A stretch of DNA of 64,000 bases from Terriglobia bacterium (GTDB lineage: Bacteria > Acidobacteriota > Terriglobia > JAIQFV01), in contig JAIQFY010000020.1 in the NCBI GenBank assembly GCA_020072965.1, forward strand, positions 62,001 to 126,000, given 5' to 3'. This document shows positions 17,661 through 41,690 of the stretch, piece after piece; within the stretch, counting starts at the first letter, position 1; each line of letters starts with the position of its first letter. The notes under the pieces were generated by a model. It was not told the origin of the DNA. It did not search any database and saw only the letters and a list, made by a program, of their open reading frames with translations. Made by a program: the position numbers and the translations under genes.

Positions 17661-17771
17661 ATCCGAACACAACTTGAAGACTCTCCTCTAGTGGAAGGCG
17701 AAAGATGTTGCCGGGTCGGGACGTTGCTTATGCCCCGGCCGCGGGATTGGCATCCTTGCCTGAAGAAAAAC

Positions 17772-18512: not shown

Positions 18513-18626
18513 TAGAACGCCGGAGGGTTGATTTTGAGTCCCTGACTGTTCCCGGGTCAGGCGCGGGATCGAGCCGGGCTCAAAATGAGTCATTCGGAAT
18601 AATCTGATTGCCCACAAGGAGGAACG

Positions 18627-18872: not shown

Positions 18873-18907
18873 ACGAAAGGAATGGAGTCGTCAGACTGCA
18901 TTTTTCT

Positions 18908-21314: not shown

Positions 21315-21324
21315 GTGTCAGGTT

Positions 21325-21515: not shown

Positions 21516-21523
21516 GAATCTTT

Positions 21524-22513: not shown

Positions 22514-22571
22514 AGATTCGGAAGGACAACTCCCGGGGTCCGGCGGGATTTTCAGCCGTTCGCTGGAAAAT

Positions 22572-22841
22572 GTGGGGGGGCATCCTGCCTTCAGACGCGA
22601 GGGCTCCTTGGATTCCAACAAAAAAATTCCAGCCTCCTCGAATTCCGGAAAAAGAATATTTCCGCGGAGAGAGGACGAAATTGTCCCCCCATCGAGTGAG
22701 CATGAACTCTATGGCAGAGGAACACGTCGTCCCGGAGCGAATCAACCCCTTTGCGATATCTGTGGTCATCCACTGGTCCAGCGCAACTGCAAGCTGATTT
22801 GCACCAACTGTGGATTTCGACGGGACTGCTCGGATCCGTGA
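22572..22841 (+). CDS. Small zinc-ribbon protein (NCKLICTNCGFRRDCSDP type)
   Basis: Up to 89 aa, with a polar N-terminus and a C-terminal zinc ribbon: C-D-I-C-G-H-P-L-V-Q-R-N-C-K-L-I-C-T-N-C-G, then R-R-D-C-S-D-P at the end. I recognise this ending from short uncharacterised proteins of several phyla but know no function. The start is open: GTG 22572 or TTG 22608 (with GAGGG upstream). It follows etfA by 58 bp in the same direction. Confidence 0.65.
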   Translation: MGGHPAFRREGSLDSNKKIPASSNSGKRIFPRREDEIVPPSSEHELYGRGTRRPGANQPLCDICGHPLVQRNCKLICTNCGFRRDCSDP

Positions 22842-23107
22842 CACGGCTTCAAGGATTCTGTGAAGTTTGGCTCATATACTTGGCCTTCTTCCATTGTGGT
22901 TCACGCCCCACTTCTGCTCCTGACCCATCAGAACATCAACCCCCAATACTTTCATTGAGTGCAGGCCGTTGCATTTGGGCGAATAGCGTCTTAGTGGGGG
23001 GGGAATGGAGAAAAAAGGATTTGGAATCGTCCGGGCTGACAAATGAGCCTCAAAACAGTATATTGACTGCTGACAGACGGATGACTGAAACCCGATGAAA
23101 CTGACCC

Positions 23108-23884
23108 ATGTCTGAACAGATAACCGAAACAGCTGAAATAAAGGCCGCGGCCGCAGAACAGGGAGCGGCGAAACGGGACCATCAATTACACGGATCTCCG
23201 CGGGCGTGGACGCGATGGCAACGGTTCCAGATCTGGGCGGCGGCGTATGTTGGCTACGGGCTCATTGAACTCATTGGGAGAACACTGAGGTTCGAATCAC
23301 GCGGGGATGAGAACCTGGAGGCGATTTACAGGGCCGGACACCGCGCCATCTTCGCCTTTTGGCACAATCGTATCTTTGGGGCCACCTGGTATTACCGCAG
23401 GCGTGGCATTGTGGTGATGACTTCACAGAATTTCGATGGAGAATATATTGCGCGCTTCATCAAAATGCATGGCTACGGGACAGCGCGTGGTTCCAGTTCG
23501 CGGGGAGGGATGCGAGCGCTCGCCGAAATGGCGAGGTGCCTGAAACAGGGAAGTGATGTGGGATTCACTATTGATGGACCCCGTGGGCCGCTTTACCAGG
23601 CCAAGATGGGGCCGGTATTGCTGGCTCGCAAGACGGGCGATGCGATCTTCTGCTTTCATGTCTCATACGAGAAGAAGTGGGTTCTGGGAGGCAGCTGGGA
23701 TCACTTTCAGATCCCCAAACCTTTCAGCCGCGCTTTGATCATCAATGCCCCGCCCATATATATCGATCCGGCTGCTGACAAAGCGGCCTTACGAACAAAG
23801 CATCAAGAGATGCAGCACCTGCTGGATAGGATCCGCGAGGAGGGAGATTCCTTCTGGGCAGACAGTTCGAGAAGGAATAGCTAA
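23108..23884 (+). CDS. DUF374 / lysophospholipid acyltransferase-like protein
   Basis: A 258-aa protein with a 45-residue polar lead and one hydrophobic segment. The LPLAT signature appears as F-W-H-N-R-I-F, and the later T-I-D-G-P-R-G-P box is diagnostic of DUF374 proteins. R-G-S-S-S-R-G-G lies between them. Relatives include KDO-dependent lipid A acyltransferase-like enzymes, so acyl transfer in envelope lipid synthesis is probable. A repeat block begins at its stop. Confidence 0.87.
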   Translation: MSEQITETAEIKAAAAEQGAAKRDHQLHGSPRAWTRWQRFQIWAAAYVGYGLIELIGRTLRFESRGDENLEAIYRAGHRAIFAFWHNRIFGATWYYRRRGIVVMTSQNFDGEYIARFIKMHGYGTARGSSSRGGMRALAEMARCLKQGSDVGFTIDGPRGPLYQAKMGPVLLARKTGDAIFCFHVSYEKKWVLGGSWDHFQIPKPFSRALIINAPPIYIDPAADKAALRTKHQEMQHLLDRIREEGDSFWADSSRRNS

Positions 23885-24160
23885 AAGCAAATTCCAAATT
23901 CCAAAGTCCAAAATCCAATTAAATTCCAAAGACCAAAAACCAAAGACCCAGTTCAACGTTCCAAGTTTAAAGTCAAAACCCTACGATTCCACGTTTTCAG
24001 CTCTGCCCTCCGACTTCCGACTTCTGGCTTCCTGCCTCTCACATCCGACCTCCGACATCCAATTTCTGGCCTCTGGCTTCCGGCTTCTGGTGCCTGACTT
24101 CTGGCTTCTGCCTTCCGACTTCCGACTTTGTTCCCCTGACACCCGACACCTGACCCCTGA
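23885..24160 (-). repeat. Dispersed two-part intergenic repeat, copy 2 (inverted)
   Basis: AAATTCCAAAGACC-type words at 23885-23975, then CTTCCGACTTCTGG-type words at 24005-24135, then ACACCCGACACCTGACCCC. It is in reverse orientation to copy 1, and the segment 23955-24002 is close to the reverse complement of 21416-21465. It lies between the convergent 3' ends of the acyltransferase and the GH57 gene. Confidence 0.75.
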
Positions 24161-24163
24161 AGC

Positions 24164-26359: not shown

Positions 26360-26682
26360 GTGATTTCACTCGGAACGCATCTGCGAGGAACAGTCGCTAA
26401 GTCAACTGCACATCAAGCTCGGAGGCTAGCATGAACATCTTGCAGAGATTCTGGCGAAAAACCGCCTTGCCATGAAGAGCGCAAAATCCGCAGCCAGGAG
26501 CTCTGAAATTATCATCGGAGGAAAAAAATTGCCACCCGTATTTCATCGTCGATTGAAGGAGAGGCAGGAGTAATATCCCGATAGGACCGTCCCCTCGCGA
26601 CAGACATTGCAACATCCGGGAAGTCTGACCGCGTGTCCCGTCCCGCGATTGGATTTCACCGAAACCGCGGCTTAAACTTGCG
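26360..26682. other. Intergenic stretch, nothing recognised
   Basis: It holds the promoter side of the GH57 gene and the 3' side of the permease pseudogene. No gene or clear hairpin seen. Confidence 0.45.
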
Positions 26683-27638
26683 TTACGATTTCGTCCGATT
26701 GATCCACCACGCATAAAGTGGCAGCCCCGCCATTATGATCAGCGCTCCGACGCCAATGGTCTGTGGACTCGTCACAAAAACGTTCACGACCATCGCCAGG
26801 CTGGCAAGAACAAAAATGGCGGGGAGTACCGGATAACCTCAGGCTTTGAATCCTTCCGGTTCTGCTGCCTGCCTTCGTCTCAATACAAAAAGCGAGGCGA
26901 CGGCGCCTCCTGAGAAAAGCAGGATTGCAAAACCGGTGTAAATCAGGAGTTGCTCAAAGATCCCGCAAAGCACAAGAATTCCACTCCAGAGTGCTGGAAC
27001 GAGAATCGAGATGGCGGGAGTTCGGAACCGGGGATGGACCCGTGCGGCGGATCGGAAGAATAGGCCATCCTGTGCCATGGCATAGTAGTTCGCGGACCCG
27101 TAATGATCCAAGCGCTGAGACCGCCGGCCAGGGACAGCAGAATAAGGACCGTCACGGCGTCTTCCATATGACTGCCGAACAACGCCCGGGCCACCCGGTC
27201 TCCCACATGGATCTGGCCTGACAGCTGTTCGGGAGCGAGGGCGAAGAGATAGAGCGCGTTCAAAAGGAGATAGAGAATCGTCACGACCCCTGTGCCGATC
27301 AGGAGAGTGCGCGGCACATTGCGCCGCGGATCGCGAAGCTCTTCGGACACGTACGTGGCGGCATTCCAGCCGCTGTAGGTAAACATGACCGGAACAAGGG
27401 CCAGCATCCAGTCCGAAGCACCCAGTGGGCCGGTTGAATGGAGGAAGTTTCCCTTCGATCCTGAGCCCCACGCGAAGCCGAGAGCAATAAACATGAGCAG
27501 AGCTATCACCAGTAAACTGGTGAGGCGTTTTGTACCAGTCGCCCTGGTCGAAGGCCGCAGATATGGATTGAGGAGAGCAAGAGTCAATAGAACCCTCATT
27601 TTATGTCCCAATTGTTTGAACAAAGAAAATGACCTCAT
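26683..27638 (-). pseudogene. APC-family amino acid permease, decayed
   Basis: Permease sequence runs from about 27560 down to a TAA at 26683. The first frame has F-T-Y-S-G-W-N-A-A-T-Y-V-S-E-E, typical APC sequence, then breaks near 27090 after I-I-T-G-P-R. The next frame continues Y-Y-A-M-A-Q-D-G-L-F-F with A-A-R-V-H-P-R-F-R-T-P, then meets a TGA at 26839, after which the same frame still reads G-Y-P-V-L-P-A-I-F-V and ends W-W-I-N-R. The N-terminal half of the usual 450 residues is absent. One truncation, one frameshift and one stop make it non-functional. Confidence 0.85.
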
Positions 27639-28174
27639 TTCGATGCAACCGCAGTCCTGATGTGAGTATTGGTTCAGAAATGGTCGGAATTGATAGAGTT
27701 ATTGCTGCTCGATAAGCTATAGATTTCTATGATGTCAATCTCTGATGGATTCTTTCACCCCAATAATCACAGTTTCATCAGCGCAAAGCGTAATGAAAGT
27801 CCGAAACTTCAGATTTTGGAATTTGTTTACAAATAAATCTGATTTTTCGGATTTCCAGGGGGCAGGGACGGGGGATCCTTCTGGAAACCATCTTGATCCT
27901 GTTGACAAATCACGATAAATAATTCACAAGCACGCCAGAACACTTTGGCAAGTTAGATGCTCGTCTTTTCTTTAAGATTTGAGGTTAAGCACTCCGCCGT
28001 TAGTGCTAAGTAGTTGGAGATAAGTGGGGACTTTCGAACCATGTCGTATTAATTCAAGTCAATTGTAGAGTAAACAGGGATGCGTAGGAGACTCGTGTTC
28101 CACCTTTAACCCCGAGACTAAAGAGCTCATCCCGGCTCTGAGGTTTTTTGGATACAAATACAGGAGGAGACAAT
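27639..28174. other. AT-rich leader region of the TonB-dependent receptor
   Basis: 535 bp without a gene, richer in A/T than its surroundings. A TTGACA occurs near 27903, but no well-spaced -10 box was found. The region ends in AGGAGGAGA before the receptor start. Confidence 0.4.
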
Positions 28175-31100
28175 ATGTTAAGCAAATGGAAGAGAGGCTC
28201 GGTCGCAGGTGCGCTTGCGGTGAGTCTGTTCGCTGTTCTGCTGCTCATAGCATCGGTCACCTTGTGGGCACAGGGCTTCGATGGAACTCTTCGCGGCACC
28301 GTGAAGGACTCGTCCGGCGCGGTCATAGCCAATGCGACAGTTATTGCAACCAATGATGCGACCAAAGCAGCGCGGTCTGTGGAAACGACGTCGGACGGAA
28401 CTTTTAATTTTCCTAATCTTCAGGTCGGATCGTACACAGTGACAGTTGAAGTCAAGGGATTTAAGAAATCTGTCCGGAAGGGGGTGGAGGTTAAAGCCAA
28501 CCAGGTCGTTGAAGTTTCCGCTGCGCTCGAAGTCGGTTCTCTCGAGACGGTTGTCGAAGTGGCGGCGGGAGCAGAGCTGATTCAAACCACCTCTTCGCAG
28601 GTCGGTGGATCGGTCAGCGAGCGTGCGGTCATTGATCTTCCCAATCCTTCCCTGGGTGGCTCGCCACTCAATCTCTCCATCATTTTCCCCAATACGACCA
28701 CCCAGTCGGGAGGCATGGCGGGGGAAGGGGGATCGATTGGCGGCACTCGACCCCGCAACAATAACTTTACGATTGATGGGGTCGACAATAATGACGTCTC
28801 GATAACGGGTCATCTTTCACCCGTGATTCAGGATGCGGTGGCGGAGTTCGTGCTGCTGACCAACCAGTTCAGTGCGGAATACGGACATTCGTCAGGCGGT
28901 CAGTTTAATATCATCACGAAATCGGGCAGCAATGAAATGCACGGTGATGCCCACTATTACTTTCAGAACAGAAAGATGAATGCCTTCGACAATCTGTCGA
29001 AGGCGGCCATTCCGGATCGGTTGGCGGCGGGTCTTCCGGCTAAGCCGCGCTTTGATTTCAACCGGGTTGGAGGGACGTTGGGTGGCCCGATTATTAAGAA
29101 TAAGTTGTTCATCTTTGGGGCTTACGAATACCAGACTCGCGGGCGTGAAGCCTCGGGAGTCTCGATCCTGGCGCCCACGGCTTCCGGATTGTCCACTCTG
29201 AACGCGCTTGCCGTCAATTCAGCGGTCCGCGAGATACTGGCGCAGGTTCCCACCGCAGGTGCGGCGACTTCAAGCATTGTGGTCAACGGGCAAACCGTTC
29301 CGATTGGGACCCTCCAATTGTTTGCGCCGGATTTCTTTGCGCAACACGATTTCCAGATCAACGTGGATTTTAATACCGCAAAACACCAATACCGGGGCCG
29401 CTTTTTGTACGATCGCTTCCGGGCGCCCAATATTAACCCTGAAGGACCCCTCCCACAATTTTCCGGTTCGCAATTTGCTGACAACCGCAAGGTGCTGTTC
29501 ACGGACATCTGGGCGATCAATAACCGGGTGGTCAACGATTTTAGAACCTCATACTCGCGTAATGTCAACGGCTTCGGAGTTCCGGACCAATTCAAGAATT
29601 TCCCGAATGCCATCATTGCGGATCTGGGCCTAAATATGGGTCCTGAGGGCAACTCCCCCCAGGGAGGGACTCAAAACATTTACCAAATTCTCGATAACAT
29701 TAGTTATACAAGGGGAAAACACCAGTTGAAATTTGGAGTGGAGTTCCGTAACTGGATCGCTCCGTCAGATTTCCTTCCGCGGGCACGAGGCGAGTGGGGC
29801 TACGAGAATTTCTCTCAACTTATCAACGATCAGATCCCCACGGGATTGAATGGCGCGCTTCGAGGAGCCGGTTCTGGATTCTTTGCCGGGAATCAGAGTG
29901 CGATTTACTGGTTTGTCCAGGATGATTTCAAGGTAAGCTCGCGGTTGACCTTTAACCTGGGCCTTCGATATGAGTACGCGTCCAATCCCCGCGATGCTTC
30001 GCTCCAGGCACTGAATTCGATTGCCAGTGTTCCCGGCCTGGTTGACTTCCGCGTTCCGAAGACAGACCGAAACAATTTTGCTCCCCGATTCGGTTTTGCC
30101 TTTGATCCCAAGGGGGATGGCAAGATGGCGATCCGCGGCGGCTTTGGGATCTCTTATGATGTCACCTTCCAGAACCTGACGCTCCTGCAGCTCCCACCTC
30201 AACTTCAAACTGAGCAGAATCCCAATCTTACTTGTGCATTGTCGAATCCTCCGGCCTGGTGTCCCAATGGCCCGGGCTTTCTTGCAGGAGGTGGTTTGTT
30301 AGCGGTCAATGTTCCTCCCACCACGGTGGCTGATGCGCGCACCGCCACGCAGTCTGTCATCGTTGATACGGTGGCCCCGAAGATTCTTACCTGGAGCTTG
30401 AGTGTCCAGCGGCAGTTTGGCAAAGACTGGGAAGTGGAAGTCCGCTACCTCGGGACTCGCGCCGACCATTTGCCGGTACAGATCCGAGAGAACTCGATCT
30501 CAGTCTTTGATATCAATCCGAACCTGGCGTTGCCCACTTTTTTCAGCGCCTCTCAAGTTCCTTCGAAGTTCTCCCTTTCGGCGCCTACACAGCAGGACGT
30601 TTTTGACGCCGAGAACTTGCGTTACGTAGCGCAGGGATTTGACGGGGGCTTGCTCACCGCGTTCCCGCCGGTTGGAAACTCGATCTACCACGGTGGTTCG
30701 ATCGATGTGAACCGTCGCTTCGGCCAGGGAATCTTCCTGAAAGCAAACTACACCTGGTCCCACGTCATTGACGATTCCACCAATGAGTTGTTCACGAGCC
30801 GCGTGAATCCTCGCCGCCCGCAGAATCCATTCAACATGAGGGATGAACGGGGGAACTCCGCTCTGGACAAGCCACACAAGTTCACTTTCGGGTGGACCTA
30901 TGAACTGCCCAAGGTGAGAGTGGAAAGTGCCTTTGCCAAGAAGGTACTTCATGGATGGCAGATCAATGGGACTTATCTGGCCGAGTCGGGTCAACCTATC
31001 ACTGCGCTTTCGGGAATCGATGCCAACGGGGACTTTGATTCCGCCGGCGACCGTGCCCTTCTCAATCCGAACGGGATTGGATTGACGGGGACGGGCGTAA

Positions 31101-31534
31101 GCTATATCCTCCGGAACCCCGCCACGGGCTCCACCTCGCTCTGCAATCCGGCGACGTCTGATTGTGACAGCACGCGCACCGTGGGTTATGTCGCCAACAA
31201 CCCGACGGCCCGGTTTGTGGTCGCGGAGACGGGAACCAAGGCCGCGGGTACGGTGGGAAGGAATACCATTCGGACCCCGGGGCTCAACAACTGGAATATT
31301 TCGATCTTCAAAAACACATATATTTCCGAAAAGAAATACATCCAGTTCCAGCTGCAGATGCTGAATGCCTTCAACCATCGCCAACCCGCCCTGGGTGCAG
31401 GCAGTGTCTTTGGGTTCCTTGACAATGCCCTCAGCACCACCTATTCGAATGTGTCCAGTTCGAATTTTTTGAATGCGGGGCAATTCAATGCGGGGAATCG
31501 AACTATTCAACTGGCATTGAAACTGGTCTTCTAA
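28175..31534 (+). CDS. Oar-like TonB-dependent receptor with carboxypeptidase-regulatory N-domain
   Basis: An 1119-aa outer-membrane protein. A signal peptide (about 8-32, ending L-W-A-Q) is followed by a CarboxypepD_reg-like sandwich (T-L-R-G-T-V-K-D-S-S-G-A-V-I), a plug with N-N-N-F-T-I-D-G-V-D-N-N-D and F-S-A-E-Y-G-H-S-S-G-G-Q-F-N, then a long barrel ending in L-A-L-K-L-V-F. Proteins of this build are abundant in Acidobacteria and are linked to uptake of large substrates; the substrate cannot be told here. ATG 28175 has AGGAGGAGA 5 nt upstream. A strong terminator follows, so it is a single-gene unit. Confidence 0.93.
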   Translation: MLSKWKRGSVAGALAVSLFAVLLLIASVTLWAQGFDGTLRGTVKDSSGAVIANATVIATNDATKAARSVETTSDGTFNFPNLQVGSYTVTVEVKGFKKSVRKGVEVKANQVVEVSAALEVGSLETVVEVAAGAELIQTTSSQVGGSVSERAVIDLPNPSLGGSPLNLSIIFPNTTTQSGGMAGEGGSIGGTRPRNNNFTIDGVDNNDVSITGHLSPVIQDAVAEFVLLTNQFSAEYGHSSGGQFNIITKSGSNEMHGDAHYYFQNRKMNAFDNLSKAAIPDRLAAGLPAKPRFDFNRVGGTLGGPIIKNKLFIFGAYEYQTRGREASGVSILAPTASGLSTLNALAVNSAVREILAQVPTAGAATSSIVVNGQTVPIGTLQLFAPDFFAQHDFQINVDFNTAKHQYRGRFLYDRFRAPNINPEGPLPQFSGSQFADNRKVLFTDIWAINNRVVNDFRTSYSRNVNGFGVPDQFKNFPNAIIADLGLNMGPEGNSPQGGTQNIYQILDNISYTRGKHQLKFGVEFRNWIAPSDFLPRARGEWGYENFSQLINDQIPTGLNGALRGAGSGFFAGNQSAIYWFVQDDFKVSSRLTFNLGLRYEYASNPRDASLQALNSIASVPGLVDFRVPKTDRNNFAPRFGFAFDPKGDGKMAIRGGFGISYDVTFQNLTLLQLPPQLQTEQNPNLTCALSNPPAWCPNGPGFLAGGGLLAVNVPPTTVADARTATQSVIVDTVAPKILTWSLSVQRQFGKDWEVEVRYLGTRADHLPVQIRENSISVFDINPNLALPTFFSASQVPSKFSLSAPTQQDVFDAENLRYVAQGFDGGLLTAFPPVGNSIYHGGSIDVNRRFGQGIFLKANYTWSHVIDDSTNELFTSRVNPRRPQNPFNMRDERGNSALDKPHKFTFGWTYELPKVRVESAFAKKVLHGWQINGTYLAESGQPITALSGIDANGDFDSAGDRALLNPNGIGLTGTGVSYILRNPATGSTSLCNPATSDCDSTRTVGYVANNPTARFVVAETGTKAAGTVGRNTIRTPGLNNWNISIFKNTYISEKKYIQFQLQMLNAFNHRQPALGAGSVFGFLDNALSTTYSNVSSSNFLNAGQFNAGNRTIQLALKLVF

Positions 31535-31557
31535 CTTAACAGTTGGAGGTTTTTTCC

Positions 31558-31588
31558 AAGGGGAAGCTTCGGCTTCCCCTTCTTTTGT
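31558..31588 (+). terminator. Rho-independent terminator with TTCG loop
   Basis: Stem AAGGGGAAGC / GCTTCCCCTT around a TTCG tetraloop, followed by CTTTTGTTTG. It ends the receptor transcript 24 bp after the stop. Confidence 0.85.
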
Positions 31589-31609
31589 TTGGAAGAGGAG
31601 GGATGTCTA

Positions 31610-31770
31610 CACGACCTGGGGGCCACCCCTCAACCGCAAAGAACGCCATGCGGGCGCAAAGGCCGCAAAGAGTTGGCCCTTGACGTTTGGACATTCTCCT
31701 TCTTGTGTTCTTGGCGCCTGCTTGGCGCCCTCTGCGGTTGGTTCTTTCTCAGTTCGAGGGGGCGTTCATA
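31610..31770. repeat. CCGCAAAG-type inverted repeat in intergenic space
   Basis: CAACCGCAAAGAACGC-like bases near 31630 face CTTGGCGCCCTCTGCGGTTG near 31720-31741, forming an imperfect large dyad. Similar bases occur at about 8940-9022. Confidence 0.45.
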
Positions 31771-31871
31771 ATGAACAAAAGTGAGTCCCGGATTGACGGC
31801 TCAATAATCAAACCTGTTGACTTCTCTTTCTCGCTTCAATACGATTTCTCTGATACTCCAGCCTGATCTTC

Positions 31872-34466
31872 ATGAGACTCACATCAGGTACGCGTCTTGG
31901 TTCTTACGAAATCATCTCTCCCCTGGGTGCTGGCGGGATGGGTGAGGTTTATCTCGCTCAGGATACGAAGCTGGACCGAACGGTTGCACTGAAAATTCTT
32001 CCGGCCGCCTTTGCCTCAGATCCCCACCGGCTGCAGCGTTTTCTGCGGGAAGCCAAGGCAGCCTCTTCGCTGAACCATCCCAATATCCTGACCATCTACG
32101 AGGTTTCGGCCGCGGAGCCCTTTCCGTTGATTGCGGCCGAGTATATTGAGGGAGAGACGTTGCGCCGACACCTCGCCCGAAGGCGGATGTCCATTCTGGA
32201 ATCGTTGGATGTGGCGATCCAGGTGGCCAGCGCTCTATCGGCTGCGCATTCGGTAGGCATCATTCATCGCGACATCAAGCCTGAAAACATCATGTTGCGC
32301 CCGGATGAGTACGTCAAGGTTCTTGACTTCGGGCTTGCCAAGGTTCTGGAACCGGAGAAGGCGGAAGACCCGACAGTACTTGGCACCATCACGCAGTTCA
32401 ATTCAGAACCGGGGTTGGTGTTGGGAACGGCCCGATATATGTCGCCGGAGCAGGCCCGGGGATTGGAGACTGATGGAAGGACAGATCTGTGGAGTCTGGG
32501 AGTGGTGCTCTTCGAAATGGTCGCCGGCACTGTCCCGTTTGGAGGGAATGTTTCGACCGAGATAATCGCTTCAGTCCTGGTCATGGAGCCTCCGCCTCTG
32601 GCGCGGTTCTCCCGGGAAGTTCCCGAGGAATTGGAGCGGATTGTGACGAAGGCCCTGGCGAAAAACAGGGAAGAGCGTTTTCAGACGGCCAGGGACTTCC
32701 TCCTTGACTTGAAGGGGCTGAAGAAACGGCTGGAAACTGACACCGAACGGATACGCCGGGGGCAATTCAGTTGGGAGAGCGGCCAGGGGACACCGGGAAG
32801 TGATGACCCGGCGGCAATCAGCTCAGGCGACCACATGACTCCGTGGTCGAGAACGAGCGGCATAAAGCTTGCATCCGGTCCGTCGGGACTTGTAGCGAGG
32901 ATCAAAGCACACAAGGCAATTGCAGCCATCGTGTTGGCTGCTTTGGGAGTTGCCATCTTTGTCTCCTATACCTACTTTCTCCGCAACACTCTGAATTCGA
33001 TTGATTCCATCGCGGTGCTGCCGTTCTCCAATGCAGACCCCGATCCGGAAACGCAGTATTTCTCAGACGGGATAACGGAGAACACGATCAACAGCCTTTC
33101 TCAGCTGCCCCATCTCGCTGTGATTGCCGGGAGTTCGGTGTTTCGCTATAAGGGCCAGGAGATCGACCCCCAGACCGTAGGCAGGAGACTTAAGGTCCAG
33201 GCAGTGCTGACCGGAAGGGTGATTCGTCGGAATGATGATCTGACGATCAGTGTTGAACTGGTTGATGTCCGGAATAATCATCATCTGTGGGGAGAACAGT
33301 ACAACCGCAAGATTTCGGGCATCCTCTCCCTTCAGTCGGAACTCGCCGGAGATATCTGCGAGAAGCTCCGTTCCACCTTGACCCGCGAAGAGCATGATCG
33401 GGCAACCCGGCATTACACGGAGAACACCGAGGCTTACAATCTCTATACTAAAGGCCGCTATTACTGGAATCGGAGGACGGGAGAAGACGTCAAAACAAGT
33501 ATTGAATACTTCGAAAAGGCGATCGCCCTGGATCCGCGTTATGCCCAGGCATATGCAGGGCTGGCAGACGCCTACATCGCCCTTCCTGTCTACAGCGATG
33601 TTCAGCTCAACGACGCCCTCCCGAAAGCTAAAAATGCAGCATTGAAGGCGCTCGCCATCGATGACACCTTGGCCGAAGCCCATACCTCGCTGGCAGGATC
33701 GATCGGACAGGACGACTGGTATTTTAAGGGAGCCGAAAAGGAATTTAGGCGGGCCATTGCATTGAATCCGAACTACGCCACCGCCCGTCAGTGGTATGCC
33801 CAATTCTTATCCACCATGGGTCGCCATGCCGAGGCGTTCGATCAGATCAGACAAGCCCGGGAACTGGATCCCCTCTCCCTGATTATCCAGACCAGTGTGG
33901 GTAATACTCTCCTCAAGGCCCGTCTGTACGACCAGGGGATCGAGCAGCTCGAAAAGGCGATTGAGATGGATAGGAACTTCTACCGGGCCCATCTCTACCT
34001 GGGAAACGCTTATCTCGAAAAGGGAATGTATGACCGCGCCATCGGGGAATTCAAAATCGCCGCCGTCCTTTCGGGAGAAGAAAGTCCAGAGGAAGCCGCA
34101 ACGCGGGCAACTGCGCTCATGAGAGCTTACGAAACTTCAGGGGCGAAGGGGTATTGGGCCCAGCAACTCAACTATCTGGAAGAGGAGATGAAAACCCGGC
34201 ATGTGTCGCCCTACAAGATGGCTTTCGCTTATGCATGGCTTGGTGAATCCAACCTGGCCATCGAATGGCTGCAAAAAGCATTCCAGGAACGGGATATTAA
34301 TTTTTTGAACCTCAAGATCGATCCGCAATTTGACTCCCTCCGCACTGACCAGCGCGTACTTCAACTGATGCGCCGCGTCGAACTTCCGGAATGGTCTGGA
34401 AGCGACTCCAATGCCGGTCCAGACAAACGCAATCTCGCGGTGAGCACCTTACACCCGATCCAGTGA
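31872..34466 (+). CDS. Ser/Thr protein kinase with TolB-like and TPR domains
   Basis: An 864-aa membrane protein. A Hanks-type kinase (1-270) has G-A-G-G-M-G-E-V-Y, K41 in V-A-L-K, H132-R-D-I-K-P-E-N and D152-F-G-L-A-K. A helix lies at about 350-372. Beyond it, S-I-A-V-L-P-F-S-N and Y-F-S-D-G-I-T-E mark a TolB/FlgO-like N-domain (about 375-500) as seen in adenylate cyclase-type regulators, then several TPR units up to the end (A-L-D-P-R-Y-A-Q-A-Y-A-G-L-A-D-A-Y). It is expected to sense or scaffold outside the membrane and phosphorylate inside. Targets are unknown. Confidence 0.93.
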   Translation: MRLTSGTRLGSYEIISPLGAGGMGEVYLAQDTKLDRTVALKILPAAFASDPHRLQRFLREAKAASSLNHPNILTIYEVSAAEPFPLIAAEYIEGETLRRHLARRRMSILESLDVAIQVASALSAAHSVGIIHRDIKPENIMLRPDEYVKVLDFGLAKVLEPEKAEDPTVLGTITQFNSEPGLVLGTARYMSPEQARGLETDGRTDLWSLGVVLFEMVAGTVPFGGNVSTEIIASVLVMEPPPLARFSREVPEELERIVTKALAKNREERFQTARDFLLDLKGLKKRLETDTERIRRGQFSWESGQGTPGSDDPAAISSGDHMTPWSRTSGIKLASGPSGLVARIKAHKAIAAIVLAALGVAIFVSYTYFLRNTLNSIDSIAVLPFSNADPDPETQYFSDGITENTINSLSQLPHLAVIAGSSVFRYKGQEIDPQTVGRRLKVQAVLTGRVIRRNDDLTISVELVDVRNNHHLWGEQYNRKISGILSLQSELAGDICEKLRSTLTREEHDRATRHYTENTEAYNLYTKGRYYWNRRTGEDVKTSIEYFEKAIALDPRYAQAYAGLADAYIALPVYSDVQLNDALPKAKNAALKALAIDDTLAEAHTSLAGSIGQDDWYFKGAEKEFRRAIALNPNYATARQWYAQFLSTMGRHAEAFDQIRQARELDPLSLIIQTSVGNTLLKARLYDQGIEQLEKAIEMDRNFYRAHLYLGNAYLEKGMYDRAIGEFKIAAVLSGEESPEEAATRATALMRAYETSGAKGYWAQQLNYLEEEMKTRHVSPYKMAFAYAWLGESNLAIEWLQKAFQERDINFLNLKIDPQFDSLRTDQRVLQLMRRVELPEWSGSDSNAGPDKRNLAVSTLHPIQ

Positions 34467-34559
34467 GCGTGAAGCTGAATTCCGAATCCGCTGCAGGGCA
34501 GATCCTGCGGAGGCGGGTGAACCCAAGGGTCGGAATGGGTTCAAACCTCGGAATGTGGT

Positions 34560-35231
34560 TCAAGGCTTCATCCAAACCTGCTTTTGCAGGAATTGAACCA
34601 GGTCGAGGGACTTTACGCGGAAGCGGTCGAACTGGACCAGCATCGCATCGACAGGGTCTTGGTGCTCTGGGACCAGATCCAGGACCATCCTGCGGACCCG
34701 CTGGAGTGTCCGCTCCCCAAACCACATGGACTTCAAGGACTCGAGGATTTGATCGAGTTGGGACGGACTGAGAATGCGGCTCTCCACCATTTTACGAAGC
34801 CAAAATCGGATGTGAACCAGGGGTTCTGAGAACGGGCGGTACGGGGGCTCCTGTTCATGCAGCAGGGCGACCTCATCATCCCGAAAATCCTCGTGTTGCA
34901 AGAAACATTCATAGACCTGCCCGTAACCACGCACACCCAGGTTCCTCATCTCATAGGCACGAATTGCCCCCATCGAAGAGAGGCCCCACACCCGCCATCC
35001 TTTTGCGACTGCGTCCCGAATCTCCGCATGGCCGATCGCGAGGCGTTGATGAAAGACCCCATCAACCAGAATGATGGTACCCGGTTGAAAAGATGAGACG
35101 AGTTCCTCGACATCGCCCCGCTGTGCTGGCGGGAGCGGATAAACCCCATTCGGAGGGATCACTCCGGCGGTTTGAGCCCCGTGAAGGGTTGGTCCAGCAT
35201 ACAGGAAACAGTTAGAGGCGGTCCCTGACAT
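34560..35231 (-). CDS. tfuA: TfuA-like protein
   Basis: A 223-aa cytoplasmic protein with the TfuA core: Y-A-G-P-T-L near the start, I-I-L-V-D-G-V-F (about 53-60), S-S-M-G-A-I-R-A-Y-E-M (about 85-95) and D-D-E-V-A-L-L-H (about 117-124). TfuA proteins partner YcaO enzymes in making peptide thioamides (thioviridamide-type RiPPs, methyl-coenzyme M reductase), probably by helping deliver sulfur. The ATG at 35231 lies inside the end of ycaO (20-bp overlap), so the two are translationally coupled; the frame could open earlier (35351), but the family sequence begins at 35231. It is the last gene of the operon. Confidence 0.9.
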   Translation of the reverse strand: MSGTASNCFLYAGPTLHGAQTAGVIPPNGVYPLPPAQRGDVEELVSSFQPGTIILVDGVFHQRLAIGHAEIRDAVAKGWRVWGLSSMGAIRAYEMRNLGVRGYGQVYECFLQHEDFRDDEVALLHEQEPPYRPFSEPLVHIRFWLRKMVESRILSPSQLDQILESLKSMWFGERTLQRVRRMVLDLVPEHQDPVDAMLVQFDRFRVKSLDLVQFLQKQVWMKP

Positions 35232-36438
35232 AATCTCGAAGACGTGGTCCGATGCGGGTTGTGGTCTCCTTGAAACATTCGAGACCCGGTACCAGGATCC
35301 GGACCACCTGGAGAGGGGATCCGGGCTCTGTGTAGGCCACTCGAAGGACATGATGAAATCCGTTCCTTCGAAGGGATGCCATCAACACGCCCAGCGACGA
35401 TTCCAGGTCGGTAAGAGAGGCGGAGCTGTCTGCCGTGTCTTCATAGAGAAGTTTGGGATGCTCTCTTGCGACCCTCCGTGTAAGCCTTTGCGCGTACTTT
35501 GCCGGTGAGTCTTTTGAGCCGTCCTCAACGCGATGGTATCGTTCCCGCAAGTCATCCCGTCCCCCGTGAATAAAGGACAGGCGGCTCTGCAGGGCCTCAC
35601 AGACCGCCCGCGTCAGGGCGACTTCTCTGGAGGGGTTACAGCCAAACCCGCCGTTGATAAACAGGGGAGTGGAACATTTCGGTTCAACGACGAAAGCCAT
35701 GAAAAAGGGGAGTTCAAAACAATTTTTCACATAGCGCACGTAAAGCTTTAATCCCACAGCGCTGAGATTGGTTTCGATGCGGCGTATCGCAGGTGGCAAG
35801 CTGCTGGTCTGGACCAGGCAGGACTGGTCGTCAACAAAGTAGAAGGAGAGGACGTCGCGCTCAATCACCTCCGCCAGCCCGTGGACGGTCGCTTCCAGGA
35901 CCGAATTTCCGGAACACAGACCGTTGGTGTTCGAGCCGAAGTATTCTTCCCTGCCTGCGTCATCAGGGAATGGGAAAAAAACGAGCTCTGCCGGGACCAG
36001 ATACCGATCCCCGGTGTCCACATCGTGCGCCTCGACACAGCTCATGGGGGCATCGAGGTCGATGGACACATTCATCATGGGGCAGAAATCGAGGATGGCT
36101 TCAGGACGGGTGGAACCGTCATACAGATCTCTTGCCGGCCTTCGTAGAACCTTAAGCGACGAGCGGTGATGCTCTGCAAAGGCGTACTCGATCGACTCCA
36201 TGTAGGCGCCCACCCGGGCTTCCTCTGTAGAAAGCCCCTTGCCCGCATTGACACACAATGATCCCTGCTGAGCGTCTGGACGAATGCTCACAAAGACCGG
36301 AACCCCCGCAACGTCGAGTCGCGTAATGTCAGTCACCCGTGATATTCCCAGCCTTTGGGAGATGGTCCGGGCACGAGATAGTGTGACATCCAGGGGTTCC
36401 GCGCGAAGGCTCGAGCTGTATCGAAAGACCTGGGACAA
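35212..36438 (-). CDS. ycaO: YcaO-domain enzyme (probable thioamide-forming cyclodehydratase family)
   Basis: A 408-aa protein of the ATP-dependent YcaO family, which activates backbone amides. The segment S-T-E-E-A-R-V-G-A-Y-M-E-S-I-E-Y (70-85) is the first ATP/Mg motif but ends E-S-I-E-Y, where E-x-x-E-R is usual. The second, H-G-L-A-E-V-I-E-R-D (186-195), and the third, R-A-V-C-E-A-L-Q-S-R (277-286), look intact. No proline-rich C-terminus of the azoline type is seen. TTG start at 36438, with GGTGAG 5 nt ahead, 13 bp behind the small repeat protein, and overlapping tfuA. Together this suggests thioamidation, not heterocycle formation (inference). Confidence 0.9.
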   Translation of the reverse strand: MSQVFRYSSSLRAEPLDVTLSRARTISQRLGISRVTDITRLDVAGVPVFVSIRPDAQQGSLCVNAGKGLSTEEARVGAYMESIEYAFAEHHRSSLKVLRRPARDLYDGSTRPEAILDFCPMMNVSIDLDAPMSCVEAHDVDTGDRYLVPAELVFFPFPDDAGREEYFGSNTNGLCSGNSVLEATVHGLAEVIERDVLSFYFVDDQSCLVQTSSLPPAIRRIETNLSAVGLKLYVRYVKNCFELPFFMAFVVEPKCSTPLFINGGFGCNPSREVALTRAVCEALQSRLSFIHGGRDDLRERYHRVEDGSKDSPAKYAQRLTRRVAREHPKLLYEDTADSSASLTDLESSLGVLMASLRRNGFHHVLRVAYTEPGSPLQVVRILVPGLECFKETTTRIGPRLRDYVRDRL

Positions 36439-36451
36439 GCTCGCTCACCCC

Positions 36452-36745
36452 TTATTTGGATCGGGTCTTCTTGACCTTCTTGGTCATCAAGCTCAGTTTC
36501 ACGTGCTCAGAATCATAAGCCGCGCCGGCTGTAACAAGGCCCTCGCGCAAATGCTCCGTGAATCGGGCGATGGTCGCCGGATCAAGATGAACCTTAGCGC
36601 TGGATTTCATCTTCATCTTCTTGGTGTCCACATCATAAGCTGCACCGATTCCGGCGAATGCTTTTCGCAAACTGGATTCGATCTGCAGAACCGTCTTTGC
36701 ATCAAGAGTGACTTTTGCTTTGGGTCCAGGTTTCTTTGTGGACAT
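36452..36745 (-). CDS. 97-aa Lys-rich two-repeat protein, candidate YcaO/TfuA substrate
   Basis: A 97-aa protein with no Cys, made of two imperfect copies of a 28-residue unit at 11-38 and 51-78 (period 40). Both begin K-V-x-L-D, contain L-R at the middle and end G-A-A-Y-D; 13 of 28 positions are identical. The N-terminus S-T-K-K-P-G-P-K and the C-terminus V-K-K-T-R-S-K are basic. AAGGAG lies 9 nt ahead of ATG 36745, which rules out the longer frame to 36790. The stop is 13 bp from ycaO, so it is the first gene of that operon and by position the likely precursor or partner. I do not recognise the family, and no leader/core split or double-Gly motif is visible. Confidence 0.8.
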   Translation of the reverse strand: MSTKKPGPKAKVTLDAKTVLQIESSLRKAFAGIGAAYDVDTKKMKMKSSAKVHLDPATIARFTEHLREGLVTAGAAYDSEHVKLSLMTKKVKKTRSK

Positions 36746-37081
36746 CGGGGTAGTCTCCTTGTGGTTGAAGTGAGTCGGTCGATTATACATGCTCGATCCC
36801 TGGGGTCATACAGCAAAAGCACGGCCTGCCCGCGAACACAGGGGAACCGGGGGCAAAGGCGCTGTGGGAGCACCTCCTCTCACTCGGGAGGAAATTCCGG
36901 GGAGGGGCCTGCTTTGGCGGCGGCCCCCAACCGGGGATCCGCTGGACTGCATGAAGCGCTGACAGCCAAACAAGAATTCTATGGAATGTCATCGCACCCC
37001 CTCTCCCGGTGACTGAGATCAGACCCAAATATGATGTTCTGAACCCGGTCAAATCGCAAATGGATCCGTTGGAGAGAGAGG
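36746..37081. other. Promoter side of the ycaO-tfuA operon, no gene seen
   Basis: 336 bp between the end of the esterase/TPR gene and the small repeat protein on the same strand. A minus-strand frame of 100 codons crosses it but reads Pro/Cys-rich low-quality sequence and overlaps the small gene. No hairpin terminator clearly seen. Confidence 0.4.
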
Positions 37082-38497
37082 TCACTTTTTCTTCAAGCTT
37101 TCGAGAATGCTGAGAAAGGAAGGATCACCGCGGATCAGTTCAAGATCGGGGTCGCTTTCCAGTGTTTCCACCTCGGTAAAACCCTTCTCGACGGCGTTCT
37201 TCAAGGCACCCAGGGCCTCCTTCTTTTTTCCGTCTCGGGAATAGGCGCAGGCAAGATGGTAAAACAATCCCGGATTCTCCGGCTTGATTTGGGCCGCAAG
37301 CAGGAATTTGAATGCAGCAAGCCCGTAATCGCGGACCCGAAAATGTTGCATCGCCTCCTGGCTCAGCTCGACCAGAAAGAGATTGAGGACGCGCCGGGCA
37401 ACCAAACGGCCTGACGTATTCTCGTTTTCTCCGGCCACCCGCTTCAAACTGGTGATCTCCTGGGTCAGTTCGTTGAGGACGAAGGAACGGTCTTGAGTGC
37501 GTCGATAACTCTCCTCCAGGCTCAAAAACTTCCTCCTGAACTGGTCTTGATGCTCCTCCTGTTCCCTTTCCTCCTTGAGAGCCAGCCTCATTTCTTTTGA
37601 TTTTCCTAACTGCGCCTTCCTGCTTTCAGAGGAGGTGACGTCTCGAAGCCCCTTAAAGTCCTCCGCCAGCGCCTGGTATTCGAGAAAAGCCTCGTACACC
37701 TTGTTGGATGACTCATCGAGCCGGGCGACTTCTGTTGCTGTCCTGAACATCTCGTCGAGGAGGGCTTCGTTGATCTCTCGCAGGCCTGATTTCATCGCTT
37801 GTAATTCCATCCATCCCACGGCCTCCAGGCAAACCCTGGGAGGAGGCCAATCGTGGCCGCCCTCGAAGGTCGCCATCCGGTGAGGAATCTTCAAACGTTC
37901 CAGGGCTTCCTCCAGCTGTCTCATCTCGAAGAAATTAAAGTCCTCGAGCCCGGCAGTCCCAAAGTACACGAAGGGAAGAGAAGGGGACGGCTTAAGTTCC
38001 GAAGGGAAACCGGCGCCACAACCAATCACTCCCGCCACCTGTCCTCTCAGCGAGTGGGCCACCGAGACTGCAACGCGGGCGCCCCCCGAAAACCCGGTGA
38101 GATACACGCGGTTCTCATTGATAGCAAATCGGGCTTGAGTGTCTTCAAATAATGCACGGATGGCGGCAATGATCGGCTCGGGCGGGCCGTTGCGGGAATT
38201 GTTTGAGCCCGCCACAATGTATCCGTACTTCTCCGCGGCTTCTTTGAAACGCTCCACAGGCAGGCGCCCCCGGGCTCCCGCATCAAAGGCATAAAGAATC
38301 GGCCACTTTCTCCCGGGAGTGTAGTGCGGGGGAAGATACAGGGCGTACGTCTGATGGGGATCGGCTTGGCACGCGACCCTGTCAATGATCTGTCCTCGGG
38401 GGAAATTCTCCGGGGAAGGGGCGCACACAAAAGATGAGGTGGACACCAGAAACAAGAAAAGGGAAATCCTCAGCGGGAGCAGAACGGGACTTCTCAT
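37082..38497 (-). CDS. Exported alpha/beta-hydrolase with C-terminal TPR
   Basis: A 471-aa protein with a signal peptide (M-R-S-P-V-L-L-P-L-R-I-S-L-F-L-F). The first half is an esterase/PHB-depolymerase-like hydrolase with the nucleophile in L-T-G-F-S-G-G-A-R and a late His in F-E-G-G-H-D-W-P-P. The middle (about 260-370) is charged and helical, and the end carries TPR-like P-E-N-P-G-L-F-Y-H-L-A-C-A-Y-S-R. ATG 38497 overlaps the stop of the GGDEF gene (ATGA), so the two are co-translated. The substrate is not known. Confidence 0.8.
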   Translation of the reverse strand: MRSPVLLPLRISLFLFLVSTSSFVCAPSPENFPRGQIIDRVACQADPHQTYALYLPPHYTPGRKWPILYAFDAGARGRLPVERFKEAAEKYGYIVAGSNNSRNGPPEPIIAAIRALFEDTQARFAINENRVYLTGFSGGARVAVSVAHSLRGQVAGVIGCGAGFPSELKPSPSLPFVYFGTAGLEDFNFFEMRQLEEALERLKIPHRMATFEGGHDWPPPRVCLEAVGWMELQAMKSGLREINEALLDEMFRTATEVARLDESSNKVYEAFLEYQALAEDFKGLRDVTSSESRKAQLGKSKEMRLALKEEREQEEHQDQFRRKFLSLEESYRRTQDRSFVLNELTQEITSLKRVAGENENTSGRLVARRVLNLFLVELSQEAMQHFRVRDYGLAAFKFLLAAQIKPENPGLFYHLACAYSRDGKKKEALGALKNAVEKGFTEVETLESDPDLELIRGDPSFLSILESLKKK

Positions 38498-40077
38498 AAC
38501 GGTTGGAGAGGGGAGGGGAGGACGCAATTCCGGCCGCTTTGTTTGGCCTTGTACAGGAACTCGTCCGCCGAACGGATGAGGTCACCGGGAGAGCCCGCAT
38601 CCTCGGGATAGGTGGCGACACCGAAACTGGCAGTGGCACGGTGTGGCCCCTCATGATTAGGTCCCCAAAAGAGGGCTTCCTGCGTTTTGTGGCGAAGCTT
38701 CTCTGCCACAATCAACGCATCAGGGAGGGCTGTATTCGGAAGGATGGCGCTGAACTCGTCCCCTCCGTAGCGGGCAATGATATCACTGTCACGCAAGGAC
38801 TTCGTCAGGAGCGCAGACACCTGCTTGAGAATGGCGTCCCCGGTCTGGTGACCATGGTCGTCGTTGATGGATTTGAAATGATCGATGTCGCACATGATAA
38901 AGGAGCATGGTCTGCTGAGACGGTTCATGCGGTGCAGCTCCAGTTCAAGCTGCTCCATCAGGAAGCGATGATTGTAGAGACCCGTCAGCCCGTCGCGATT
39001 TGCGCGGACATCGACCCACCGGGCATTGGCGAGGGCAATCGAGGCGTAATCCGCCACGGCCGACAAAACCCGTTCGTCATTGCGAGTGAACCCATTCAAG
39101 CGTCCACTTTGGACGTCGAGAACGGCAAAGACCTCCCCCTGGCGCTTCAAGGGCAACGCCAGCTCCGAAACGATTGGGCAATCCGAAATGAGATTTGCCG
39201 TCGTATAGCGACTGTCCTGTTGCACGTTTCCGACGTTGGTCATTTCCCCCCGCAATGCTACCCATACCGTGATCCCGGGTCCCGACAGAGGCAGACGCTT
39301 GTCGTCTGAATTGTCTTTGGCGACAAATCCCTTTTGAGCACGGAGGGCCAGCTCTTGAGTGGTATTTTCAACGGTCCACAGCGAACAGTTCGCATAGCCG
39401 AATTTCTCCTTGATGATAGCTAAAATCTGCTCTACGAGTTGATCAACCACCAGGGTGGAGACGAGCGTTTTCCCCATTTCCTGGAGCGCCGCGACCTCCT
39501 TTACCGTCGCAATATGCTTCTCCCGCTGTCGCTTGGTTCGCTCCATGACAAGGCAGCTGAATACCACGACCAGGAAGAACACGGTTACTCGTACGCCTTC
39601 TGCCTGCGGGTCCAGGGTCTCATGCTGGGAGAGGTGCAACAAGAGCGTAAGATAGGAGATGACAAAGAGAGAGCTGATTACAAGGCCGTCGCGAAGGCCC
39701 ACCAGACTCACCATGAAAACAAAGGGAAGAAATGTGACGGAGAAGAGAAGGCTTCGGGCTTCATGGGCCACATAGAGATAATAGGTGAGCCACAGAATAG
39801 AGAGGACAACGGGCGTATAAATGAAATGGGGGTCGAATGTAAGCCTTTCGTCCAGTCGGCTTTGAAGGGCAAAGAGCAACAACAGGGTGTTGGCCAGGAA
39901 GAATACAAAGCACCACACCAACTCGCGCTGGCTGGTGGTGCTGAGTTCGAGCCATCGGCACAACCACAACACCATGATGCCGAGCAGATAGCCCACCGCT
40001 GCCAGCAGGACTCCACGGCGTTTGGTGCGCCGGGCTGCCTCCTGAGAAGAGACGCTGTCGAACGCCTGAGCCGTCAT
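38494..40077 (-). CDS. Membrane GAF-GGDEF diguanylate cyclase
   Basis: A 527-aa protein: six membrane helices (about 25-180), a short linker, a GAF domain (about 205-345), and a GGDEF domain with R-Y-G-G-D-E-F around 430-436 and D-G-L-T-G-L-Y-N-H-R-F at its start. The intact signature predicts c-di-GMP synthesis from two GTP. An R-x-x-D inhibitory site at the usual place five residues ahead (R-D-S-D-I-I-A-R-Y-G-G-D) is visible as R-D-S-D, so product feedback is likely. It is coupled to the exported hydrolase downstream. Confidence 0.93.
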   Translation of the reverse strand: MTAQAFDSVSSQEAARRTKRRGVLLAAVGYLLGIMVLWLCRWLELSTTSQRELVWCFVFFLANTLLLLFALQSRLDERLTFDPHFIYTPVVLSILWLTYYLYVAHEARSLLFSVTFLPFVFMVSLVGLRDGLVISSLFVISYLTLLLHLSQHETLDPQAEGVRVTVFFLVVVFSCLVMERTKRQREKHIATVKEVAALQEMGKTLVSTLVVDQLVEQILAIIKEKFGYANCSLWTVENTTQELALRAQKGFVAKDNSDDKRLPLSGPGITVWVALRGEMTNVGNVQQDSRYTTANLISDCPIVSELALPLKRQGEVFAVLDVQSGRLNGFTRNDERVLSAVADYASIALANARWVDVRANRDGLTGLYNHRFLMEQLELELHRMNRLSRPCSFIMCDIDHFKSINDDHGHQTGDAILKQVSALLTKSLRDSDIIARYGGDEFSAILPNTALPDALIVAEKLRHKTQEALFWGPNHEGPHRATASFGVATYPEDAGSPGDLIRSADEFLYKAKQSGRNCVLPSPLQPL

Positions 40078-40185
40078 CGTGGTCTTTTGCTTGTTGGTTA
40101 AATACAGGAGATCTTCAACTCGGATCCCGGAAGGGTTCCTTCAGGAAACCCGGTCAGTTTAACATAAACAGTTGCCCATTGCGTC

Positions 40186-40345
40186 TCCTTCGAGTCCAAA
40201 GGCCAAAGTCCAAGGTTCAAGCACCCAGTTCCAAGTTCCAAGTTCAAGGTTCAAAGTTAAAACCCCTCCTTCTTATTGCGGCCTCAGGCCTCCGACTTTC
40301 GACCTCTGATCTCTGACGGCTGAGAACTGACAACTGCTCTCCCCC
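40186..40345 (-). repeat. Dispersed two-part intergenic repeat, copy 3
   Basis: GGCCAAAGTCCAAGGTTCAA and CCAAGTTCCAAGTTCAAGG words, then GGCCTCAGGCCTCCGACTTT-type words, ending in CCCCCGACACCC. Same orientation and block order as copy 2. It lies upstream of the GGDEF gene, next to the terminator at 40354. Confidence 0.7.
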
Positions 40346-40353
40346 CGACACCC

Positions 40354-40393
40354 AAAAAGAAATGCCCACTCAGATGGGAATAATCCGAGTGGG
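40354..40393 (-). terminator. Rho-independent terminator (minus strand)
   Basis: GCCCACTC at 40364-40371 pairs with GAGTGGGC at 40386-40393. On the minus strand the hairpin is followed by ATTTCTTTTT. It lies 20 bp behind the small membrane protein at 40414-40533. Confidence 0.8.
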
Positions 40394-40413
40394 CACCGGG
40401 TTTGGCTTGAACT

Positions 40414-40533
40414 CTATCTCAATCGCAAGGATTGAACCTGTTCACGCTTCCCTCTGCCGGATATCTTGGATCGCAAAGCGGCCACCACGGCCCCTGTTGA
40501 GACCAAGCCCGCGACGACTAGGAAAAATGTCAT
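40414..40533 (-). CDS. 39-aa membrane peptide
   Basis: A short frame M-T-F-F-L-V-V-A-G-L-V-S-T-G-A-V-V-A-A-L then a basic tail with R-S-K-I-S-G-R-G-K-R. One hydrophobic helix plus a positive tail fits a small inner-membrane protein. No strong ribosome-binding site was found, but a clean terminator follows on the same strand, so a transcript is likely. It could instead be a small RNA. Confidence 0.4.
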   Translation of the reverse strand: MTFFLVVAGLVSTGAVVAALRSKISGRGKREQVQSLRLR

Positions 40534-40820
40534 GTTGCGTGGTCATCTACCTTTCTACAGTGTGGGCGGAGTCTCGAGTCGAGCGGCGCGCTGCGTTCAC
40601 TGTTGATTAACTCAGAACCCGAAGCGAGCATATCATCTCCAGATCAATTTTTCAATTCGATCAACGGTGCTGGATTCCGGAGGAGGAGATGGGGAAGTGA
40701 GGGGTCTGATTCTAGGGCTTGCAATCATCGATAGGCTGTGAAACCATAAGTCGCGGTTCCGCAAACCCGATCGAGCCTTGCAAATCCAGCACTGCCCGTT
40801 TCCGAGTGATCAAGGACAGC

Positions 40821-41690
40821 ATGAAAGATCCATTTGCCCCCTCTCCTTCCAACTCAGGGGCGGCCGGCAAGAAATCCAAAAAGTCAATGGGATCCGTTCG
40901 TCCGGATCCCTTTACCCTCTCGGAGTCGGAGATGTTGAGTCAGTTGCCCCAGGCGATTGGTCCAAGCCTTTTCCTGGACCATTTCACTTTCGACGAAGTG
41001 TCCGCCCAAATTGAATCGACCAGCTTTTTGTCGGCCATGAAAAAGAAGGGCGTGCCGATTCCGCGGGTGGAACTCATGCGCGTTGATCCGGATGAGCACC
41101 GTCTCATCGTATTTGACGATTCTGAATCCGAGCCGGTGAAAATGATCGAACTCCGGCTCGCGCTGACGCGGATGGAAGTTCCCGCCCTGGCGGGGTATTC
41201 TACCCTGCCCAGTCTGTTTGAGATGCTCGCGATTAACTGGGTCATGATGCAGAATCCGAGGGCTGCTTTCACTGAGAATCGTCCCCAGCTTCCCGGGCAG
41301 GAACATCCCGGTTTGGGGCTGGGTCAAAAATGCCAGGAGTTCCTGGTTCATCTGGGCGCCGAACTCCGGCGGGATGGATTGGTCAATCATCCCCAATATT
41401 TCCACAACGCGATGTTTTACCGGGATGAATACTATTTCATTGATCCCAGGCGACAGGGCGAGCTGCTGGCCATGTTCCGTGATCTTGCCAGGTACCCGAT
41501 CGGTATGGCGTCCCAGGCGATTGCGGACGGCAGGCTCATAGATGTACAGCGGCAGATTCGGGTTGAATGGGACCCCGAAGGTATGGTCTGCCCGATTCAC
41601 AACCCCCTCGGCGATTATTTCCAAAGTCGGGAGTACCGCGAGGCTGTCCAGAGAACACTCTCCTCGTGCATGTATGACCTTGTCCTTTAG
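40821..41690 (+). CDS. Conserved-looking hypothetical protein
   Basis: A 289-aa soluble protein of unknown role. The first 30 residues are Ser/Lys/Pro-rich; the rest has D-E-H-R-L-I-V-F-D-D, G-L-G-L-G-Q-K-C-Q-E-F-L, R-R-D-G-L-V-N-H-P-Q-Y-F-H-N-A-M-F-Y and P-I-H-N-P-L-G-D-Y. No named domain recognised. The ATG at 40821 is preferred; the frame extends to 40719. A TPR protein follows 170 bp later on the same strand. Confidence 0.6.
   Translation: MKDPFAPSPSNSGAAGKKSKKSMGSVRPDPFTLSESEMLSQLPQAIGPSLFLDHFTFDEVSAQIESTSFLSAMKKKGVPIPRVELMRVDPDEHRLIVFDDSESEPVKMIELRLALTRMEVPALAGYSTLPSLFEMLAINWVMMQNPRAAFTENRPQLPGQEHPGLGLGQKCQEFLVHLGAELRRDGLVNHPQYFHNAMFYRDEYYFIDPRRQGELLAMFRDLARYPIGMASQAIADGRLIDVQRQIRVEWDPEGMVCPIHNPLGDYFQSREYREAVQRTLSSCMYDLVL

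Follow-up and report, generated by a model that had tools for sequence, protein, structure and literature searches.

A small basic protein encoded in one compact operon with a YcaO and a TfuA protein raises the question of whether it is the substrate of a thioamidation system and, if so, whether it is a peptide precursor or a protein that stays in the cell. The locus lies in a 64,000-nt stretch from a Terriglobia bacterium (GCA_020072965.1, JAIQFY010000020.1:62,001-126,000), called here the window, and coordinates below are window positions unless another locus is named. The relevant features, in the direction of transcription, are the following.

36782-36809, minus strand: promoter-like site ATGACC-16-TATAAT ahead of P0001, a consensus match only
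36755-36760, minus strand: Shine-Dalgarno sequence AAGGAG of P0001, 9 nt before the ATG, read directly from the sequence
36452-36745, minus strand: P0001, 97 aa, basic, pI 10.1; putative two-unit thioamidation substrate or precursor
36632-36715, minus strand: unit 1 of the internal repeat of P0001, KVTLDAKTVLQIESSLRKAFAGIGAAYD
36512-36595, minus strand: unit 2 of the internal repeat, KVHLDPATIARFTEHLREGLVTAGAAYD; resemblance to the precursor family lies in this copy
35212-36438, minus strand: ycaO, TTG start, 408 aa; nearest solved relative MJ1094 (6pe3)
34560-35231, minus strand: tfuA, 223 aa; solved relative 6xp8

The operon and its enzymes

The preliminary description had taken these genes for a compact minus-strand operon, and this holds: P0001, ycaO and tfuA occupy 34560-36745, with a 13-bp gap between the first two and a 20-bp overlap between the last two. 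The promoter-like site matches the consensus at 10 of 12 positions, where 1.2 such sites are expected by chance in the region, and an Rfam scan of 30000-41000 gave no match. The neighboring genes encode a Ser/Thr kinase with TPRs (31872-34466, convergent to the operon), an esterase-like protein and a GGDEF protein, in agreement with the earlier remark that no transporter, protease or other RiPP enzyme is adjacent. No peptidase, transporter, ThiS/ThiF or hydroxylase gene adjoins the operon, nor do other maturation or export genes, which are common though not universal in TfuA-type RiPP clusters; Malit et al. (2021; PMC8120280) mention known clusters that lack specific transporters.

Both enzymes match their Pfam families well above cut-off (YcaO PF02624, 1.4e-60; TfuA PF07812, 1.1e-35), and among NCBIfam models both score best, below cut-off, against those for McrA thioamidation. 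The McrA-glycine equivalogs TIGR03266 and NF033432 are not reached (199 vs 365 and 134.5 vs 235.2 bits, respectively), nor is NF040716, the equivalog of the uL16-type E. coli YcaO (39 vs 700 bits), and a TfuA is present here. Among solved structures, YcaO is closest to MJ1094 (1.5e-26, aligned over residues 19-401) and TfuA to 6xp8 (1.1e-18). The alignment with MJ1094 shows that YcaO retains MESIE, EVIERD and EALQSR, three conserved stretches that bind ATP-Mg in this family. The window YcaO lacks the PxPxP C-terminus that marks azoline-forming YcaOs. TfuA reportedly employs a Ser-Lys pair in the hydrolysis of thiocarboxylated ThiS (PMC13185837). The window protein retains SSMGA, and its Lys207 is invariant in a three-sequence comparison; SSMGA and Lys207 are its putative catalytic residues. 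Four ThiS-family places occur in the genome, none of them adjoining the operon. Judged by sequence, YcaO and TfuA are of the thioamide-forming type; the Pfam and McrA-type model matches and the MJ1094 alignment support the earlier view of them as a thioamidation pair, and with enzymes of this type a thioamidated substrate is the best reading.

The small protein and the precursors of its YcaO clade

The description of P0001 as a duplicated protein is borne out by its halves, which score 64 against each other when the best of 20,000 shuffles reaches 48. The two units are identical at 12 of 28 amino acids and 44 of 84 nucleotides; the duplication is real and, at the DNA level, old. P0001 has no meaningful match in Pfam, NCBIfam or the PDB, a search of 396 phylum genomes revealed no close relative and no copy separate from ycaO, and plasmid searches gave no match. 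It contains neither a GG-type cleavage site nor the APR/GPR core-repeat motif of thiovarsolins.

Relatives of the operon were collected with a GTDB contig scan by a three-sequence YcaO alignment (11 loci), by plasmid searches (two more) and by searches of Myxococcota (several more); viral contigs yielded no YcaO relative, and 296 genomes of the Chitinophaga family in Bacteroidota no further loci. A tree of 31 YcaO sequences places that of the window in a clade of 18 loci (support 100/100) that spans Myxococcota, Proteobacteria, Bacteroidota and Actinomycetota; the other acidobacterial YcaOs with TfuA are in a separate clade of 13 rows. Its closest partner in the tree is L011 of genome G398 (94/96), where no recognised peptide lies beside ycaO/tfuA; in L011 (4490-9344) the two genes are divergent and a gene for a PKHD-type 2OG-Fe(II) hydroxylase adjoins them. 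Elsewhere in the same genome another tfuA is adjoined by a canonical-looking RiPP precursor (L023 2018-2266, minus strand) with a VAGG site and a Cys-bearing tail (LTLKTEAVKRLTSNMLKDVAGGMIPLTRHSACATACTDC).

At most loci of the 18-locus clade a peptide of 50-80 aa directly adjoins ycaO-tfuA and combines a short beta-like stretch and a helix with a variable tail of small/acidic residues. It is upstream of ycaO in Pantoea, Kosakonia, Rouxiella, Yersinia, Paraburkholderia, Glaciimonas, Vibrio, Chitinophaga, Kitasatospora, Hoeflea and the myxococcal genome G1086, and downstream of tfuA in G660 and in G1053, which has two paralogous peptides. Several of the proteobacterial loci then carry genes for an HExxH protein, ThiS, ThiF and an MFS protein (the Pantoea HExxH protein scores 39.4 bits against the aKG-HExxH peptide hydroxylase model, with a cut-off of 40). 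Part of the precursor family lies in obvious RiPP clusters. At an Undibacterium locus, a ThiS-like gene, ycaO and tfuA are preceded by an ORF (L015 5145-5381, plus strand) for what may be a precursor with repeating cores (VEQTAMGFIT / IEQTAMGIV / VEQTAMGYVA).

Several comparisons bear on whether P0001 belongs with these peptides. In pairwise shuffle tests it resembled the G660 peptide (p=0.003; unit 2, p=0.0004) and the precursors of Kitasatospora (p=0.002), Hoeflea (p=0.001) and Glaciimonas (p=0.03), with no signal against the remaining precursors. A profile of the 10 first-found precursors scored 4 of 1000 shuffles above P0001. With a profile of 14 precursors that excluded P0001, part of which we had chosen partly on resemblance, P0001 scored 7.7 bits, a value matched by none of 3000 shuffles (1 of 2000 in a rerun) and similar in range to the leave-one-out scores of Kitasatospora (9.0), G660 (4.5) and G1086 (10.1). 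Unit 2 alone was equaled by none of 2000 shuffles and unit 1 alone gave no score. Among the window and locus ORFs outside the profile, only L023 2018-2266 slightly outscores P0001. An hhalign comparison of the precursor set with the P0001 units was weak (P about 0.04-0.05), P0001 did not stand out against a profile of the four Myxococcota peptides only, which 183 of 3000 shuffles matched equally well, and it exceeds most precursors in length and basicity. We conclude that P0001 is probably a distant member of the precursor family through unit 2, to which unit 1 is joined by the internal repeat. The earlier statement that it is not a known precursor type is not supported, since P0001 probably stands at the edge of the precursor family of its own YcaO clade. 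The preliminary description had proposed to ask whether homologues of P0001 are neighbors of ycaO-tfuA; the relatives recognised here are, and these were found through ycaO. The finding that it had named as a refutation, homologues mostly away from ycaO/tfuA, did not turn up in the 396 phylum genomes or the plasmids.

P0001 could instead be a helper that serves in recognition or as an adaptor, or that regulates the operon as a small DNA-binding protein built of two ribbon-helix-like units. Its V-x-L-D plus helix pattern, in our reading by eye, resembles the starts of ribbon-helix-helix proteins, and it is basic and first in the operon; but it matches no such family in Pfam, NCBIfam or the PDB, and its counterparts in the clade are peptides mostly of 50-65 aa with variable tails. 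We find this role quite doubtful, and a ribbon-helix-helix identity, without any family match, was set aside.

A minimal operon and the fate of its product

The explanation that we consider probable is a minimal thioamidated-RiPP-like operon in which P0001 is a substrate made of two fused precursor units. Each unit would consist of a short beta-like stretch (K-V-x-L-D), a recognition helix and a small/acidic segment (GAAYD...), the last being the likeliest region of modification; this shared GAAYD segment, our predicted site, follows the helix at the position where the other peptides begin their variable tails. TfuA would release sulfide from a thiocarboxylated ThiS-type carrier encoded elsewhere in the genome, and YcaO, using ATP, would exchange one or more backbone oxygens of P0001 for sulfur, with a predicted mass change of +15.98 Da per thioamide. 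Trimming or export, if any, would fall to unlinked genes. Sulfide delivery by TfuA and activation of a backbone amide with ATP by YcaO are predicted by analogy with characterised pairs, namely Std (PMC13174530), thiovarsolins (PMC6511847) and McrA (PMC5589413); we infer that P0001 is the substrate, where it is modified and what becomes of the product.

The preliminary description leaned toward a modified structural or regulatory protein, and P0001 might indeed be thioamidated and retained in the cell as a small basic protein of that kind, like McrA or uL16. Neither a protease nor an exporter is near the operon, P0001 is strongly basic at 97 aa, and its G660 homologue, whose ends are K-rich, is basic too and comes from a bare operon. 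Proteins are known YcaO targets, namely ribosomal uL16 in E. coli (PMC13063428) and McrA (PMC5589413), and a separate group of Myxococcota YcaO-TfuA pairs adjoins larger proteins of 78-282 aa. AlphaFold, however, gives P0001 no confident fold (pLDDT 50 and pTM 0.36 alone; pLDDT 65 and pTM 0.26 with eight relatives in the alignment); its low-confidence models, mainly two helices, suggest no compact fold, although this proves little. The lack of close relatives in the phylum genomes also suits a fast-evolving precursor. We do not favor retention and regard it as rather unlikely.

In that separate Myxococcota group (L067, L068, L081, L084, L088, L091, L095, L096, L097, L098 and L044) the larger protein is encoded directly upstream of ycaO and is mostly dissimilar between loci. 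At or near its C-terminus is a motif like C[YF][LVI][LV]N[LP] (for example GINCYVLNLSRFKR; TFLVNL in L044), which suggests a shared site at which larger protein substrates are modified or recognised. At many Myxococcota loci, among them L067, L081, L088, L091, L092, L095-L098 and L044, ycaO-tfuA has a protein kinase gene a few kb away, often at a similar distance upstream and in the same orientation; kinases are abundant in these genomes.

A more speculative proposal, to which we give little credence, is an export-free system of Acidobacteriota and Myxococcota in which YcaO-TfuA would modify a retained small basic protein, duplicated in the window, maybe under the control of an adjacent Ser/Thr kinase, and would serve regulation, not natural-product synthesis. 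A kinase is also encoded near ycaO-tfuA at L041 in G660 (9019-12780) and probably at L065 in G1086 (7538-9034), where the contig end truncates the gene; the encoded protein shares 45% identity with the C-terminal region of the L041 kinase. The recurrence at the window, L041 and L065 is suggestive only. We did not retain the neighboring kinase as a functional partner, since kinases are abundant (29 in the window's own genome and at least 123 in Myxococcota genomes), the gene is convergent here, and the recurrence was noticed post hoc.

The distribution of the operon bears on a further alternative. Its ycaO is the only one in its genome, TfuA was found in 5 of the 396 Acidobacteriota genomes sampled, the window's genome included, and neither the same-genus genome G396 nor the same-family genome G397 has a ycaO match. 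G396 is collinear with the window at 14259-26596, 31438-31769 and 37131-40247 and has only ~780 bp in place of 31770-37130; the operon and the adjoining kinase gene therefore lie in an accessory segment, either gained in the window lineage or lost in G396. The G+C content of the segment is not different, except in P0001 (0.50 vs 0.56). A second stretch absent from G396, 26597-31437, encodes an outer-membrane beta-barrel protein with a carboxypeptidase-regulatory-like domain. If YcaO-TfuA acted on an unlinked housekeeping protein, P0001 would be a bystander; the nearest NCBIfam models do concern McrA, a protein target rather than a peptide, and E. coli YcaO modifies an unlinked protein (PMC13063428). 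Absence of the operon from same-genus and same-family genomes argues against such a housekeeping role; the 13 bp between P0001 and ycaO and the recurrence of a small gene beside the pair across the clade speak against a bystander, and we judge this alternative very improbable.

Comparison with known systems

Read as a minimal precursor operon, the locus is most like the uncharacterised clusters of Pantoea, Paraburkholderia, Yersinia, Glaciimonas, Vibrio, Kitasatospora and Chitinophaga, which share its YcaO clade, its YcaO-TfuA order and a small peptide beside the pair with a beta-like stretch, a helix and a variable tail. In them the peptide has one unit and a tail such as GHNANND, whereas P0001 has two units, and many of these clusters have ThiS, ThiF, aKG-HExxH hydroxylase-like and MFS genes that the window operon is without. 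Three Myxococcota loci, L041 (G660), L065 (G1086) and L066 (G1053), are about equally bare, and their YcaOs are ~50% identical to that of the window. Their peptides carry a V-x-[LI]-D motif and are basic in G660 and G1086, but differ from P0001 in being single units or, in G1053, two separate genes, and in two of the three loci they are encoded downstream of tfuA, unlike the window arrangement.

The thiovarsolins (PMC6511847) also combine YcaO-TfuA with a repeat-built precursor. There short core repeats follow one leader, whereas P0001 repeats both the leader-like part and the tail, and none of the thiovarsolin-type amidinotransferase, ATP-grasp, heme-oxygenase-like and MFS genes adjoins the window operon. 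In McrA and uL16 thioamidation YcaO acts on a protein, and the HMM nearest to the window YcaO is of the McrA type, but the equivalog cut-offs are far above its scores (365 and 700 bits against 199 and 39). Malit et al. (2021; PMC8120280) sorted TfuA-related clusters into 613 families, with Acidobacteria among them; their main text describes neither the architecture of the window nor its YcaO clade.

The chemistry of thioamidation is already known, and so is the YcaO-TfuA pair in Acidobacteria, whose clusters the main text of PMC8120280 notes. As far as the main texts of the papers cited here go (supplements may list parts), the YcaO clade with its peptide family, its bare form in Acidobacteriota and Myxococcota, and the putative substrate of two fused units are new. 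The characterised substrate classes of YcaO-TfuA were counted as four by PMC13174530, which added one of its own, and in 2021 every known thioamidated RiPP from such pairs came from Actinobacteria, according to the main text of PMC8120280. With a putative substrate beside two enzymes, P0001-ycaO-tfuA is nearly the smallest system for reconstitution. Its two-unit substrate would be a direct probe of the recognition of leader-like and modified segments, and the operon lets one ask whether retained small proteins, too, undergo thioamidation.
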